This document shows, piece after piece, positions 26,135 to 40,500 of a stretch of 64,000 nt of DNA. Each line of letters starts with the position of its first letter. The stretch's first letter is position 1. The notes beneath the pieces were generated by a model. It made no database searches, was not told the origin of the DNA, and saw only the letters and a program-made list of their open reading frames with translations. Both the position numbers and the translations under genes were made by a program. The stretch comes from Streptomyces sp. NBC_01335. Its GTDB lineage: Bacteria > Actinomycetota > Actinomycetes > Streptomycetales > Streptomycetaceae. The DNA lies in the NCBI RefSeq assembly GCF_035953295.1, contig NZ_CP108370.1, positions 6,805,001 to 6,869,000 of the forward strand, read 5' to 3'.

Positions 26135-26153
26135 TTAGCTTAGGCTTACCTAA
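26135..26153 (-). promoter_or_regulatory. Iron box upstream of the propeller gene
   Basis: TTAGCTTAGGCTTACCTAA matches TTAGGTTAGGCTAACCTAA, the DmdR/IdeR operator, at 17 of 19 positions. It is 57 bp before the start codon and probably overlaps the promoter. Confidence 0.85.
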
Positions 26154-28278: not shown

Positions 28279-28297
28279 TTAGGTTAGCCTAACCAAC
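28279..28297 (-). promoter_or_regulatory. Iron box upstream of the surface-protein gene
   Basis: TTAGGTTAGCCTAACCAAC matches the 19-bp DmdR/IdeR consensus at 17 positions; the core GGTTAGCCTAACC is a perfect palindrome. Confidence 0.9.
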
Positions 28298-29939: not shown

Positions 29940-30656
29940 TCACACCGCCACCGCGCACGCCGCGGTGAAACCGGCCGGCACCTCGACGTCGGTGAGGGCC
30001 CAGCCGGCCGGAGGCGCTGCCGGGGAGGGGCCGGTACCCAGGTAGGTGCCCCCCAGTGCCTCGCCGGCGAGCCCCTCGCCGGTGCCCTTGAGGTACGCCT
30101 CCTTGCGGGTCCAGCAGCGGGCGAAGGCGGCCGGCCGGTCCGGCGCCGCCATGCGCGCCAACTCCGCCTGCTCGGAAGGGTGCAGGGACTTCGCGACGTC
30201 CGCGGTCGTCCTCTCCGAAGGTGGCCGCTCGACGTCCACCCCGACCGGCCGGGCGGCCAGCGCCACCACCGCCAGGCCGTCCGTGTGCGACAGCGAGAAG
30301 TGCACCCGCTCACCGGCGGGCCCCGCGACCGCAGGCCGGCCGTGAAGGGCGCCGCACCCCGGGCACGCCAGCCGGACCATCGTCACCCGGGTGGGCGGGA
30401 GCTCCAGGACTCCGCCCAGCAGTACCCGCAACGCCGTGTGCGAGGCCATGTACATCGCCCGGTCCTGGGGGCGCCGGAACGCCGCGCAACGGCGCTGCTC
30501 CTCCTCGTCGAGAACGACGGGAAGGGAGAAGGCCGAGGGGTCCTGGTCCCAGGGACGTACGGACCACAGCAGCGGGCCGGCGCCGTCCAGCGCGGACGGC
30601 CCCGGAGGCCGGTCTCCCGGTGTCCAGGGCCGCGCCTTCGCCGGCGTACTCACCAC
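29940..30656 (-). CDS. 4'-phosphopantetheinyl transferase (Sfp/EntD type)
   Basis: A 238-residue PPTase. Diagnostic motifs are VHFSLSHTDGLAVVALAARPVGVDVE (magnesium site) and CWTRKEAYLKGTGEGL. A Cys-rich segment ACPGCGALHGRP before the first motif is typical of Streptomyces members. It transfers phosphopantetheine from CoA to carrier proteins, here most likely the aryl carrier protein and the synthetase's T domain. Start is one of two adjacent GTG codons (30656 or 30653). It follows the NRPS gene by 43 bp on the same strand as the last gene of the siderophore operon. Confidence 0.93.
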   Translation of the reverse strand: MVSTPAKARPWTPGDRPPGPSALDGAGPLLWSVRPWDQDPSAFSLPVVLDEEEQRRCAAFRRPQDRAMYMASHTALRVLLGGVLELPPTRVTMVRLACPGCGALHGRPAVAGPAGERVHFSLSHTDGLAVVALAARPVGVDVERPPSERTTADVAKSLHPSEQAELARMAAPDRPAAFARCWTRKEAYLKGTGEGLAGEALGGTYLGTGPSPAAPPAGWALTDVEVPAGFTAACAVAV

Positions 30657-30699: not shown

Positions 30700-34652
<3,953 letters not shown>

Positions 34653-34656
<4 letters not shown>

Positions 34657-34880
34657 GAGGCCCCCAGCAGCGGCAACCACGCCTCCACGGCGGGCTGTTC
34701 GGCGAGATCGGCGAAGGCGGCTTCCACGCCGTGCTCGCGGCGCCAGCGCTCCAGCAGCGCCATGATGCGTACCGAGTCCAGCCCGTAGTCGACGAGGTTC
34801 TCGTCGACCGGGATGTCCTCGGGGTCCTCGCCGAGGGAGTCGGCGATGTCGGCGCGGATCAGCTCAAGAGTGAGGGGCAT
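34653..34880 (-). CDS. Free-standing aryl carrier protein
   Basis: A 75-residue carrier protein, MPLTLELIRADIADSLGED..., with the phosphopantetheine attachment Ser in VDYGLDSVRIMALLERWRREHG. In EntB/DhbB this domain is fused to the C-terminus of the isochorismatase; here it is a separate gene starting 4 bp after the isochorismatase stop. It should carry DHB activated by the EntE part to the synthetase. Confidence 0.93.
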
Positions 34881-34884
34881 CGGC

Positions 34885-37278
34885 TCAGACCTCCTGGAAG
34901 AGAGCGTCGGCGGTGGTCACCACGGCGCAACGGCCGGCCGCGTACCGCAGCGCCATGTCGTGGTCCGCCCGGGAGAAGTCGGCGACCGCGTCGGCGACGA
35001 CGAACGCCTGGATGTCGCGCTGCCACGCGTCCGCGGCACTCATCAGCACGCCGATGTGCGCGTACACGCCGACGACGATCAGCTGGTCGCGGCCCTGCTC
35101 CCGCATCAGCGCGTTCAGTTCGGTGCGGACGAAGGCGCTGTACTTCCACTTGGTGATGACGTTCTCGCCCTCGACGGGTGCCACCTGCTCCGGCCCGGCG
35201 AGGGCTGCCGGGTCGTCCGCCACCCCGGGCCCCCAGAAGTCGAGTTGGAGGCCGCGCTCCTCGGGGGTCTGGCCGCCGCGCTGCGCCGAGTGCACCACCG
35301 GGACACCCAGGCCGCGGCACTTCTCGAGCACCCGGGCCGTGTTGTCCAGCATGCCGGTCAGCGGCTGCTCGCCGGCCGGGAACGCCTTCAGGAAGTGGTT
35401 CTGCAGGTCGTGGACGAGCAGCACCGCACGGGACGGATCGACCGTCCACGCCACCCGGTTGGCGGGCAACTCCTCCGCCGTGGGCAGCGGATACGGGGCG
35501 ATGGCGGGCAGTGCCATGGAAACGGGCCTTTCCTCGTGGTGCCGAGCCGGGGCGGCGGACCGCAGGCTCTTCTTGCTGATCTTGCCGATCCCGGTCTGCG
35601 GGAACGCGTCGACGAACTCGACCAGATCGGGGACCTTGTACGCGGCGATGCCGCGCTCGCGGACGAACCGCTTGATCTCGACGGACTTCAGCGGTCCGGC
35701 GCCCTCGCGGAGGACGACGTAGGCGAGGGAGCGTTCGCCGAGGTACGGGTCGGGGACGGCGACGACCGAGACGTCGTGGACGGCGGGGTGAGCGAGGACG
35801 ATGTTCTCGACCTCCTCGGGGGCGATCTTCTCGCCGCCCCGGTTGATCTGGTCCTTCGCCCGGCCCTCGACCACCAGGTGGCCGGTGGGGGTGCGGCGCA
35901 CGATGTCGCCGGTCCGGTAGAAGCCGTCCTCGGTGAAGGCCCGCGCGTTGTGGTCGGGGGCCCGCCAGTAGCCGCGGATCGTGTACGGCCCCCGGGTGAG
36001 CAGATGGCCCCACTCGCCCTCGGGGACGTCCCGGTCGGCGTCGTCCACGACGCGGACCTCGTCGTCGGCCGAGATCGGGCGGCCCTGGGTGGTGACGATC
36101 GTCTCCTCGTCGTCTTCCAGCCGCGTGTAGTTGACCAGTCCCTCGGCCATGCCGAAGACCTGCATCAACCGGCAGCCCAGCGCCGGGCCGAGGCGCCGGG
36201 CCGCCTCCTCGCTGTACTTGGCACCGCCGACCAGGATCAGTTCCAGGCTCGACAGGTCCTCCTTCGCCGCCGGAGCCGCGTCCGTCCACACCAGGGCGAG
36301 CGGGGGCACCATGCCGGTCATGGTGATCCGCTCCCGCTCGACGAGCGGGAAGGCCGTGGCCGGGTCGGGCCGGGGGCTCAGTACGACGGTGCCGCCCGCG
36401 TACAGCACGCCCTGCCAACCGGGCGAGCTCATCGGGAAGTTGTGCGCGGCGGGCAGGACCACCAGGAACCTGGTCCCCTCGTCGACCCCGCAGATCTCGT
36501 TGGACCCCCACAGCGAGTAGATGTAGTCGTCGTGGGTGCGGGGGATCAGCTTGGAGACGCCGGTGGTGCCGCCGGAGAGCTGGAGGAAGGCCAGTTCGTG
36601 CGAGCGGGGACCCTCGATCGTGCCGGTCGGCTCGACCGGCACGTCGGCGAGCGCGGTGTGCTCGCCCGGATCGCCCACCACGAAGACCTCACGCAGACTG
36701 GGCGTCAGCTTCTTGACGTGCGAGGCGAGTTCACGGTGGTCGTAGCCAGCGTGGCGGTCGGGTACGACGTACGCCACGGCCTCGGAGAACGCGCAGAAGT
36801 GCTCGATCTCGGTCTCCCGGTGCGCCGGCAGGGCGTACACGGGGAGCGCGCCGATCCGGAAGAGCGCGAAGACGACCTCGATGAACTCGCCGATGTTCGG
36901 GAGCTGGAGGACGACCCGGTCGCCCTTGGCGATGCCCCGGGCGGCGAACCCGGCGGCCAGCCGGTCGGCGCTCTCGTCCAGTTCGCGGTACGTCCAGGTG
37001 CGGCGGACCGGTGCCGGGTCGACCAGTGCCGTCCGGTCGGGGTGCGCGGTGGCGCGTTCGCGCAGGAAGTCGCCGAAGGTCTCACCGCGCCAGTACCCCG
37101 CGGCGCGGTAGCGCGCGGCGAACTCGGCGGGCCAGGTCGGCGCGTCAGGGCCTCCCGGGGTGAGCGGGTCGTGTTCGTGCACGAGCGCGGCAGGGCCCCC
37201 CGGGGTGAGCGGGTCGTGCTCGTGCACGAGCGCGGCAGGGCCCCCCGGGGTGTGCGGGTCATGCTCGGTGGCGGTCAC
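34885..37278 (-). CDS. entEB: Fused DHB-AMP ligase and isochorismatase (EntE-EntB)
   Basis: One uninterrupted frame of 797 residues. Residues about 50-575 are a 2,3-dihydroxybenzoate-AMP ligase ([56 protein letters not shown]). After the linker [12 protein letters not shown] the isochorismatase begins at Met 588 (35517) with [26 protein letters not shown] and [18 protein letters not shown], ending FQEV. No stop codon separates them, although AGGAAAGG at 35527-35534 stands 9 nt before that ATG, so a separate EntB may also be made. The N-terminus has three [19 protein letters not shown] repeats. GTG start overlaps the entC stop. Confidence 0.9.
37148..37270. repeat. 45-bp tandem repeat in the entE N-terminus
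   Basis: Units 37148-37192 and 37193-37237 are nearly identical and a partial third extends to about 37270. Each codes 15 residues ([15 protein letters not shown]), extending the ligase N-terminus beyond the usual start. Copy-number change keeps the frame. Confidence 0.9.
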
Positions 37279-38492
37279 AGCTGGGCTCCTACGGCGTTCA
37301 GGAAGGTGCGGAACTTCGCCCCGGTCTCGGCGGTCTCCGCCTCGGGCGACGAGTCGGCCACCACACCGGCCCCGGCGAACAGGCGCAGCGAGCGGCCCTC
37401 GGCCTCGGCGCAGCGGATGGTGACGACCCACTCGCCGTCGCCGTCCGCGTCCTGCCACCCGACCATGCCGGTGTAGGCGCCCCGGTCGAACGGCTCGGAC
37501 TCGGCGATGACGGCGCGGGCGGCCGGGGTGGGCGTGCCGCACACGGCCGGGGTCGGATGCAGGGCGGCGGCGAGCCGCAGCGCGGTGGTGTCCGTGTCCA
37601 GGAGGTCGCCGGTGAGCGTCGTCGACAGGTGCCACATGGTGGCGGTGCGTACGAGGGTAGGGCGCTCGGGCACGTCGAGGCGGGTGCAGAACGGGGCGAG
37701 GGCCTCACGCACGGCGGCCACCACCACCGCGTGCTCGTGCAGGTCCTTGGGGGAGTCCAGCAGCGCGGCGGCCCGGCGGACGTCCTCGGCCAGGTCCGGG
37801 CTGCGCGGCGCGGAACCGGCCAGCGGGTTGGCGACGAGCCGACCCTCCTGCCGGGCGACCAGGAGCTCGGGGCTCGCCCCGATCAGGGTACGGCCGGGGC
37901 CGGTGGGCACCGCGAAGGTATAGCCGCCGGGGTCCCGGCGGGCGAGCCGGCTCAGCATCGCGGGCAGGTCCGGCTCGGCGGGGGCGGTCAGCTCCAGGGT
38001 GCGGGCCAGCACCACCTTGGCGAACTCCCCGGCGCGCATGCGGCGTACGGCGGAGGCGACGGCCTCGGCGTACGCGGCGGCGGCCGGGACCTCGCGCACC
38101 TGCCAGGAGCCGCCGTCCTCGGCGGCGGGAGCGGGCAGTGCCACCAGCGGATCCCGGCGCAGCGCGGGCGCCCACCGGACGGACTCGGGGACCACCAGCG
38201 CGGCGGGGGCGTCCGCGTCGAACGGTATGGAGCCGACGACGACGGGCGCGGGGTTCCCCGCCCGCCGCTGGGCGTGCAGGGCGTCGCGTACGCGCTCCTC
38301 CACCGGGTTCGTACCGTGCGGCACTTCGGCGAGCACGCCGCGGCCGAGCAGGGTGAGCGTCGGCGAGGCCACGAAGCGGTCGGTGCCGGGCCGGTAGGCG
38401 TCGAGCAGCGCGGTCGCCGCTCCGGGGGTGACGGAGTCGGGGTGGGTGAGGGCGGGGGCGGCGGTGGGGGACTCGTGCACGGAGGTGGACAT
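37275..38492 (-). CDS. entC: Isochorismate synthase
   Basis: A 405-residue chorismate-utilising enzyme. The catalytic domain (about 135-400) contains [86 protein letters not shown] and [24 protein letters not shown], the magnesium and substrate residues of this group. Converts chorismate to isochorismate, first step to DHB. ATG at 38492; 85 bp separate it from entA, while its stop overlaps the entEB start (GTGA). Confidence 0.95.
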
Positions 38493-38577: not shown

Positions 38578-39369
38578 TCAGGCCCGGAGGGTGGCGCCGC
38601 CGTCGACGTACAGGTCCTGCATGGTGATGTGGCGGGCGCGGTCGGACAGCAGGAACGTCACGGCGTCGGCGATGTCCGCGGGGTCCGCGATGCGGCCGAG
38701 CGGAATCCCCGTCCGGTACGCCGCGAGGTCGCCCGCGACGACGCGGTCCGCGGCGGCGGTCACGTCCGCCGGGTCCAGATCGGCCCACATGGCGCGCTGC
38801 ATGTCGGTCATGGTCGAGCCGGGGCAGACGCTGTTGCAGCGGACGCCGTGCGCGGCCATCTCCAGACCGAGGCACTTGGTGAACATCGCCGAGGCCGCCT
38901 TGGACGCGGCGTACGCGGCCATGCCGGCGCGCGGGATGCCCGCCGCGTTGGAGGCGACGGTGACGATGCCGCCCCGGCCGCGCGCGGCCATCCGCCGGGC
39001 GGCGGAACGCGAGACGTGGAACACCCCGTCGACGTTGACGGCGAAGGTGGCGGCCCAGTGCGCGTCCGTGGTGTCGAGGACGTCGGCGTTGCGCAGCACG
39101 CCGGCCACGTTGACCGCGAACTCCAGAGGCCCGAGGGCCTGTTCGGCCTCCTCGACCGCCGCCTCGACGGCCTCGGCGTCCGTGACGTCGAGCGGGCGGG
39201 CGACCACCCGCGAGCCGTACTTCCGCGCGAGGGCCTCGATGCCCCCGGAGGTGATGTCGGTGGCCACCACCCGGGCGCCGCGCTCCACGAGGGAGGCGAC
39301 GACGGCCGCGCCGATGCCCCGCCCCGCGCCCGTGACGAGCGCGAGCCTTCCGTCGAACCCGGTGCTCAC
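38578..39369 (-). CDS. entA: 2,3-dihydro-2,3-dihydroxybenzoate dehydrogenase
   Basis: A 263-residue short-chain dehydrogenase: [57 protein letters not shown] (catalytic Tyr and Lys) and [18 protein letters not shown]. The last is characteristic of EntA/DhbA. It oxidises the isochorismatase product to 2,3-dihydroxybenzoate with NAD+. The GTG at 39369 overlaps the binding-protein stop (GTGA). Confidence 0.94.
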
Positions 39370-40349
39370 TTGACCATGGCCTTCCGGAGGTCGGCCAGGA
39401 CGTTCACGGCGGCCTGCGCGCCGCCGAGACTCGTCCACATCGAGCCGTCGATCTCGGTCACATGACCGGCCTTGACGGCGCCGAGCTGCTGGTAGGCGGG
39501 CTTCGCGGAGAGCTGGTCGACCACGCCGGAGGTGCCGGTCGAGGTCAGGGTGCCGATGAAGAGCCAGTCACCGTCGATCTCGGCGAGGTTCTCGTCGCTG
39601 ATCGGCGTGGAGTGGCCCTCGCCCTTCTCGGCCTGGATGCCCGGCCGGGTGAAGCCGAGGTCGTTCAGCACGTCGCTGATGAACACGCCCTGCTGCATGA
39701 CGGCGGAGCCCTGCGGGGAGTAGCGGGCCACGGAGACCTTGGCTCCGGCCTCCGGCCCGAGGTCGCTCTTGAGTGCGGCGACCTTCGTGTCGTAGTCGGC
39801 GAGGAAGGCGTCGGCCGCGTTGGCCCTGCCGAGCACCTCGCCGGTGAGCGACAGGGACTTCTTCCAGTCCTTGTCGTCGCCGATGGTGACCAGCGTGGGC
39901 GCGATCTTCCGCAGCTGGGCCAGCACCTGAGTGTCCGTCATCTGACCGGCGAGGATCACGTCGGGGTCGGCCTGGACGACCTTCTCGATGTCCGGGCCGG
40001 TGACCGCGCCCACCACCGGGATGCCCTCGGCCTTCTCGGTCAGGTACGCCGGGGCGCCCTTCTGGCCGCGCCCCGCCGTGAGGCCCACCGGCTTCACGCC
40101 CAGCGTGAGCGAGGAGTCGAGGTCCATCTCGCTCAGCACCACGACCCGCGAGGGATCGGCGGGAACCGTCACCTCGGTGCCGGCCGCGTCGGTGACGGTC
40201 GTGGTGCTCTTCTTGTCGGAACCGCCGGACGCAGCACCCGAGTCCGAGGAGCCGCAGGCGGTCGCCGTGAGCGCGCAGATGCCGAGGACGGCGACCGCGG
40301 CCAGCGGGCGGACGGTGCGGCGGGGAGCGGGGGACTGGTTCGGCGTCAT
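39366..40349 (-). CDS. Siderophore-binding lipoprotein of the FepB/FhuD type
   Basis: A 327-residue exported binding protein with lipobox [10 protein letters not shown] and a class III (helical backbone) fold: [63 protein letters not shown], and a final [19 protein letters not shown]. Binds the ferric siderophore for the permeases on the other strand. GGAGG precedes the ATG at 40349. It is the first gene of the leftward biosynthetic operon under the shared iron box, so uptake and synthesis are co-regulated. Confidence 0.94.
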
Positions 40350-40481
40350 GGCCGGAAACCTCCGTAGGAAGGGTGGAGCGGGCAGGTGCCGACGCCCCGT
40401 CAGGGGGGACGGGCGACGTGCGGGCACGACGAATCCCGGCCGGAACGGCAGAAGGGGTCCCTCGGCCGGGGCGTCCGGTAC

Positions 40482-40500
40482 TTAGGTTAGGCTAACCATA
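40482..40500. promoter_or_regulatory. Iron box of the divergent siderophore uptake/biosynthesis promoter
   Basis: TTAGGTTAGGCTAACCATA matches the DmdR/IdeR consensus at 17 of 19 positions. It lies 133 bp before the leftward binding-protein gene and directly abuts the rightward permease ATG at 40500. TAGGCT inside it (40488-40493) ends 6 nt before that ATG, the spacing of a -10 box for a leaderless transcript. Confidence 0.92.

Follow-up and report, generated by a model that had tools for sequence, protein, structure and literature searches.

A natural ligase-isochorismatase fusion in a putative enterobactin-type operon of Streptomyces, probably gained repeatedly through loss of a stop codon

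The window, i.e. the whole 64,000-nucleotide stretch of DNA analysed here, comes from a genome of 8.36 Mb whose relatives at the siderophore locus are nearly all Streptomyces. Its minus strand carries a run of tightly packed genes, headed by a probable ferric-siderophore binding lipoprotein (39366-40427, named by eye). Next come gene A, a 2,3-dihydro-DHB dehydrogenase (38578-39438; above the TIGR04316 cut-off) for which GTG 39369 is the likelier start, and gene C, an isochorismate synthase (37275-38492) that scores above the cut-off of TIGR00543 and slightly below that of the DhbC model NF005380 (480.1 bits against 486). Gene C is separate from the fused ligase-isochorismatase gene (E-B) that follows, with an overlap of four bases. 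After E-B, on the same strand, lie a free aryl carrier protein of 75 amino acids (34653-34880; PF00550, PP-binding, with a GLDS motif), the non-ribosomal peptide synthetase (NRPS) gene F (30700-34680), which has a single C-A-T-TE module and a serine-type adenylation site, and a 4'-phosphopantetheinyl transferase (29940-30656; PF01648). Gene F probably begins at ATG 34656, in which case the carrier gene overlaps it. Upstream of the gene run there is an iron-box-like palindrome (40482-40500) with two mismatches to the consensus; palindromes with at most three mismatches to that consensus occur there, at 28279-28297 and at 26135-26153, and none was found in 100 shuffles. The latter two lie outside the operon, beside a repeat-rich surface-protein-like gene and an esterase-like one (both by eye).

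The enterobactin-type gene set is complete, comprising A, C, E, isochorismatase, aryl carrier and one C-A-T-TE module, and the gene content is best explained as a Streptomyces-type operon for a catecholate siderophore of the enterobactin type. The adenylation-pocket residues of gene F equal those of EntF by eye in an alignment, which indicates a serine-type site and makes enterobactin the likely product. In such a pathway the isochorismatase (B) would yield 2,3-dihydro-DHB, the separate A protein would oxidise it, the ligase (E) would activate DHB and load the separate carrier, and F would build the serine trilactone; both fused domains should act as usual.

The first-pass annotation placed ligase and isochorismatase in one frame without a stop, and this is borne out by the domain matches: on the minus strand, E-B (34885-37278) runs for 797 codons (797 amino acids), stop-free, from GTG 37278, which overlaps the stop of gene C, to a stop at 34885-34887. 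Residues 48-573 (35560-37137) match the DHB-AMP ligase model TIGR02275 at 738 bits, above the curated cut-off of 723.55, and PDB 1md9, a DHB-AMP ligase, with an E value of 2.8e-221. From an internal ATG at 35517 follows an isochorismatase domain of 210 amino acids (34888-35517; PF00857 at residues 619-791), the top PDB matches of which are PhzD (1nf9) and S. maltophilia EntB (7l6j); it retains the isochorismatase Asp (in VHDLQ, a position altered in the PhzD entry 1nf8) as well as the TKWKYSAF and GVYAH segments. At the N-terminus of the ligase, a 45-bp tandem repeat of 2.8 copies (37140-37267) encodes a 15-residue unit roughly three times over, where the nearest relative, P0002, has it once.

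The two domains are joined by a linker of 11 codons (35518-35550), some of which (GCT, AGG and GTT) are seldom used in the cluster. Mean relative codon usage is 0.42 in the linker against 0.61 in the whole frame, a value equally low in 0.8% of windows of the same length, and codons of the rarest class make up two of the 11 against eight of 797 across the frame. Such unusual codons are as expected for a former intergenic spacer, which the linker probably is. A structure model, of moderate quality (mean pLDDT 71, pTM 0.58, 42 sequences) and used for this point alone, gives the linker a pLDDT of about 30, i.e. it is predicted to be disordered.

A sequencing or assembly artefact that merely hides a stop has next to no probability and was rejected, given that the nearest relative, a cluster of 23 sequences (P0002) with a 93% identical protein, shares this fusion along with a nearly identical linker, and that differing fusions are seen in the DNA of three other species, namely S. 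hyderabadensis (L009/L060), S. antioxidans (L013/L049) and S. olivaceus (L054/L122). When 5.8 billion proteins were searched, the best 120 listed per search included eight fused clusters at 90% identity (P0002-P0009); P0006 holds 34 sequences, P0008 and P0009 represent one and two, and eight of the 12 fused rows compared here are such protein records. With the junction-spanning half as query, the best 120 of 421 matches contained the same eight clusters and no other ligase-isochorismatase fusion; that search scored the 7999 candidates sharing most words, so that distant fusions could escape it, and the published C. jeikeium fusion was absent. Other natural isochorismatase fusions also appeared (P0122, P0123 and P0124), to a class II DAHP synthase in Dermacoccus and another source and to a PF05050 domain in Burkholderia ubonensis.

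The fused state is rare. Among 145 distinct ligase-isochorismatase junctions, collected in three rounds (107, 12 and 26), four are fused, the window included. In the first round both genes were present in 124 rows (the window plus 123 loci), from which 17 duplicates were dropped; this round left out L002, which has no isochorismatase, together with L001 and L003-L008. Its 107 junctions comprise four fused, 57 unfused in the same frame and 46 unfused in another frame; ranking the loci on their best aligned segment biases this set towards same-frame cases. The second round covered 39 loci: in 14 the two genes shared a strand, in 24 the DNA within reach contained no isochorismatase, and in one the isochorismatase was on the opposite strand; after removal of two duplicates, none of the 12 new junctions was fused. 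Of 40 loci in the third round, 12 were duplicates, two had no isochorismatase and the remaining 26 were all unfused. In an even sample of the genus (392 genomes), 72 had a match of at least 65% identity by hand count and all were read at the junction, two of them lacking an isochorismatase in the stretch; three of the 72 are fused, the window's own genome among them. Samples of the order (391 genomes, 137 with a match) and the phylum (396 genomes, 30 with a match) gave no fused genome beyond those named. Several possible further fusions, i.e. genus and order matches that ran past the junction with no stop, were rejected since the DNA of each one with an isochorismatase has a stop between the genes. 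S. olivaceus NRRL B-3009 has both a fused copy (L054), in a partial cluster, and an unfused one (L110). The fused copy adjoins an enterochelin-esterase homologue and an isochorismate synthase, and no gene A, carrier or NRPS was detected within 6 kb on each side by tblastn with the genes of the window.

The unfused junctions suggest how such a gene could arise. The end of the ligase gene reads ...CAGCAC TGA AAGG... in many relatives, and the ATG of the isochorismatase follows. The 141 unfused junctions divide into 61 that keep the frame and 80 that do not; a single in-frame stop precedes the isochorismatase start in 55, which are thus one stop codon from an in-frame fusion, and in 40 the stop lies inside TGA(A/G)AGG or TGAAGG. 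In relatives the stop thus stands shortly before the isochorismatase start, in a good part of them inside its ribosome-site-like motif, and loss of this stop would have made E and B one reading frame. Overlap of stop codon and ribosome site is a known general feature (PMC2784483). S. antioxidans has GGA where its relatives have TGA; the window, S. hyderabadensis and S. olivaceus have junctions that each diverge differently, and that of the window is more than one base away from its relatives, too far for its own mutational path to be read. The 80 out-of-frame junctions count against this route, in that loss of the stop would not by itself produce a fusion there.

On phylogenetic trees, the fused label requires at least eight changes of state, and strongly supported branches force at least five (FastTree, 115 rows) or at least seven (IQ-TREE quick, 47 selected rows). 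These trees do not distinguish gain from loss of the fusion; it is the differences among the fused junctions that favour repeated gain, which is the probable history. The preferred reading, to which a probability of roughly 75% is given, is that repeated loss of a stop between closely spaced genes has produced a bifunctional protein, probably accompanied by some free isochorismatase, and that the change would be near-neutral or mildly useful.

The ribosome site and start codon of the isochorismatase appear to have survived the fusion. The Shine-Dalgarno-like AGGAAAGG (35527-35534, minus strand) lies 9 nt before ATG 35517, and its duplex with the 16S tail has an energy of -7.9, compared with -7.5 to -7.9 for the internal sites of the four fused junctions and a median of -7.3 in 103 unfused ones. 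However, 14% of 579 overlapping windows of the ligase gene pair with the 16S tail equally well. The earlier description of a good ribosome site at a 9-nt gap thus holds as to its presence, while the strength of pairing is by itself unremarkable and counts, as a suggestive point only, through the position shared with the sites of unfused relatives; AGGAAAGG could be an unused leftover. The old start position is Met or Val in all 12 fused rows. Pairing as in unfused relatives and this conserved start make a free isochorismatase from internal initiation plausible. Of the proposal that both a fusion and a separate isochorismatase are made, the natural fusion with a retained internal start stands, and the two products are plausible. 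With no stop in the frame, every ribosome completing the ligase should continue into B and yield an E-B fusion of about 85 kDa, besides which some free isochorismatase would probably be made by internal initiation. The same continuity makes quite improbable an outcome in which the cell contains wholly or mainly separate proteins, whether through dominant internal initiation or through cutting of the linker. A site as strong as those of unfused relatives and the predicted disorder of the linker are consistent with that outcome; we know of no cleavage site in the linker.

From chorismate to DHB and its activation, isochorismatase and ligase are steps two and four of the route, and EntA is step three. 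The suggestion that the fusion tethers DHB production to its activation is therefore not supported: EntA has to oxidise what the isochorismatase makes before the ligase can use it, gene A is separate, and simple channelling is not the natural reading. For the same reason, direct transfer between the two fused enzymes was rejected as the default. Selection might instead act on the tether because it helps a DHB complex to assemble, EntA and the carrier included, or because it fixes the enzyme ratio, and so account for recurrence and persistence. This alternative is judged unlikely, although several observations speak for it: the recurrence on the trees (five to seven of the changes forced by well-supported branches), the retention of the fusion in both the window and P0002, whose identity is 93-94%, the 34 sequences of the P0006 cluster, and a pattern, noted in PMC4921024, of fusions around unstable intermediates, e.g. 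isochorismate. Against these stand the rarity of the fusion in the genus (three of 72 genomes), the intervening EntA step, the modelled disorder of the linker (moderate quality) and the many junctions one stop from fusion, whereby repeated stop loss requires no selection. Any advantage of the fusion is hypothetical, and the effect on the siderophore pathway is probably modest, with little changed. The ligase stop doubles in many relatives as part of the isochorismatase ribosome site, so that a single base change could convert a closely spaced pair into a dual-product gene. As a speculation to which only a small probability is assigned, Streptomyces catechol operons may shuttle in this way between E|B|carrier, E-B|carrier and E|B-carrier, the fused state being kept perhaps because, in iron-starved cells, it alters the proportions of the DHB enzymes or the way they assemble.

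Nor was the carrier set free by the fusion, as the first-pass annotation had it. In 74 of 107 loci the carrier is its own gene after the isochorismatase, and 71 of those have no ligase fusion; it is fused to the isochorismatase in three and lies farther off in five, and it was not found in 25 within the DNA compared, some of which extends over about 1.5 kb only. In this locus survey the NRPS query also matches the ligase, so that the 'E F B' orders there are not NRPS genes. A free carrier is therefore the usual Streptomyces arrangement in these sequences, and a new biosynthetic logic based on a freed carrier was rejected. In the window itself, the stop at 34885-34887 separates isochorismatase and carrier gene, i.e. 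the layout is not of the EntB type. The three isochorismatase-carrier fusions (L068, L069 and L081), which never occur together with the ligase-isochorismatase fusion, arise likewise, by a similar event. They are in frame and recreate the EntB layout in actinomycetes.

The same genome holds a second ligase and isochorismatase set (G000:C1:6364827-6371168). The region around it (L132, G000:C1:6355001-6375000) contains a ligase, a lone isochorismatase, a short-chain dehydrogenase, a class II DAHP synthase and a KASIII-type gene. Classical EntB was considered for this set and rejected, as its isochorismatase frame has no carrier domain; none was found in the eight frames scanned of 38 listed. The set is probably not a siderophore set and possibly serves another aromatic natural product.

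The fusion in the window is real, natural, present in several lineages and mechanistically simple. It offers a clear natural example of fusion by stop loss, with several lineages, one operon and unfused sister junctions for comparison. A similar step at the border of isochorismatase and carrier recreates the EntB layout, which suggests how the enterobacterial EntB fusion could arise from separate genes.

The premise that known systems keep ligase and isochorismatase apart is not supported, since a fusion of DHB-AMP ligase, isochorismatase and isochorismate synthase is listed for Corynebacterium jeikeium K411 (PMC4921024, Table 3, section 11). Going by this published listing, the gene in the window resembles it in joining ligase and isochorismatase, and differs in that isochorismate synthase is encoded apart, by gene C. 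C. variabile, a relative of C. jeikeium, has separate ent genes according to PMC3219685. According to PMC12210187, griseobactin-producing Streptomyces have an isochorismatase (DhbB) and a carrier (DhbG) as separate genes, a free carrier is known in S. maltophilia (EntB/EntB'), and the isochorismatase of E. coli, EntB, ends in the carrier as its C-terminal domain. As with DhbB and DhbG, the carrier of the window is its own gene beside the isochorismatase; unlike there, the isochorismatase is not a separate gene, although the internal start could give a free copy. The griseobactin ligase is separate and the griseobactin peptide differs, whereas the window NRPS has one serine-type module. In B. 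subtilis DhbB the carrier is again the C-terminal domain of the isochorismatase; the window isochorismatase belongs to the same family as this protein and E. coli EntB, but its carrier is in a separate gene. The engineered EntE-EntB chimera (PDB 3rg2 and 4iz6) is likewise a fusion involving EntE, but artificial, and joins EntE to the carrier domain rather than to the isochorismatase domain. The kind of fusion is thus known; what the open-access literature searched did not yield is its two-enzyme form in enterobactin operons of Streptomyces, with the recurrence and the mechanism of that form, nor was any Streptomyces ligase-isochorismatase fusion, most subscription journals lying outside that literature. 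Closest in overall layout is the ens cluster of S. varsoviensis, a strain from which enterobactin was isolated, with EnsB1 as isochorismatase and EnsB2 as separate carrier (PMC10188961); the siderophores assigned to that cluster are enterobactin and DHB-serine compounds. Both loci have A, C, E, an isochorismatase, a separate carrier and a single-module F in one direction, and the difference lies at the junction, where EnsE and EnsB1 are separate and their counterparts in the window share one frame.
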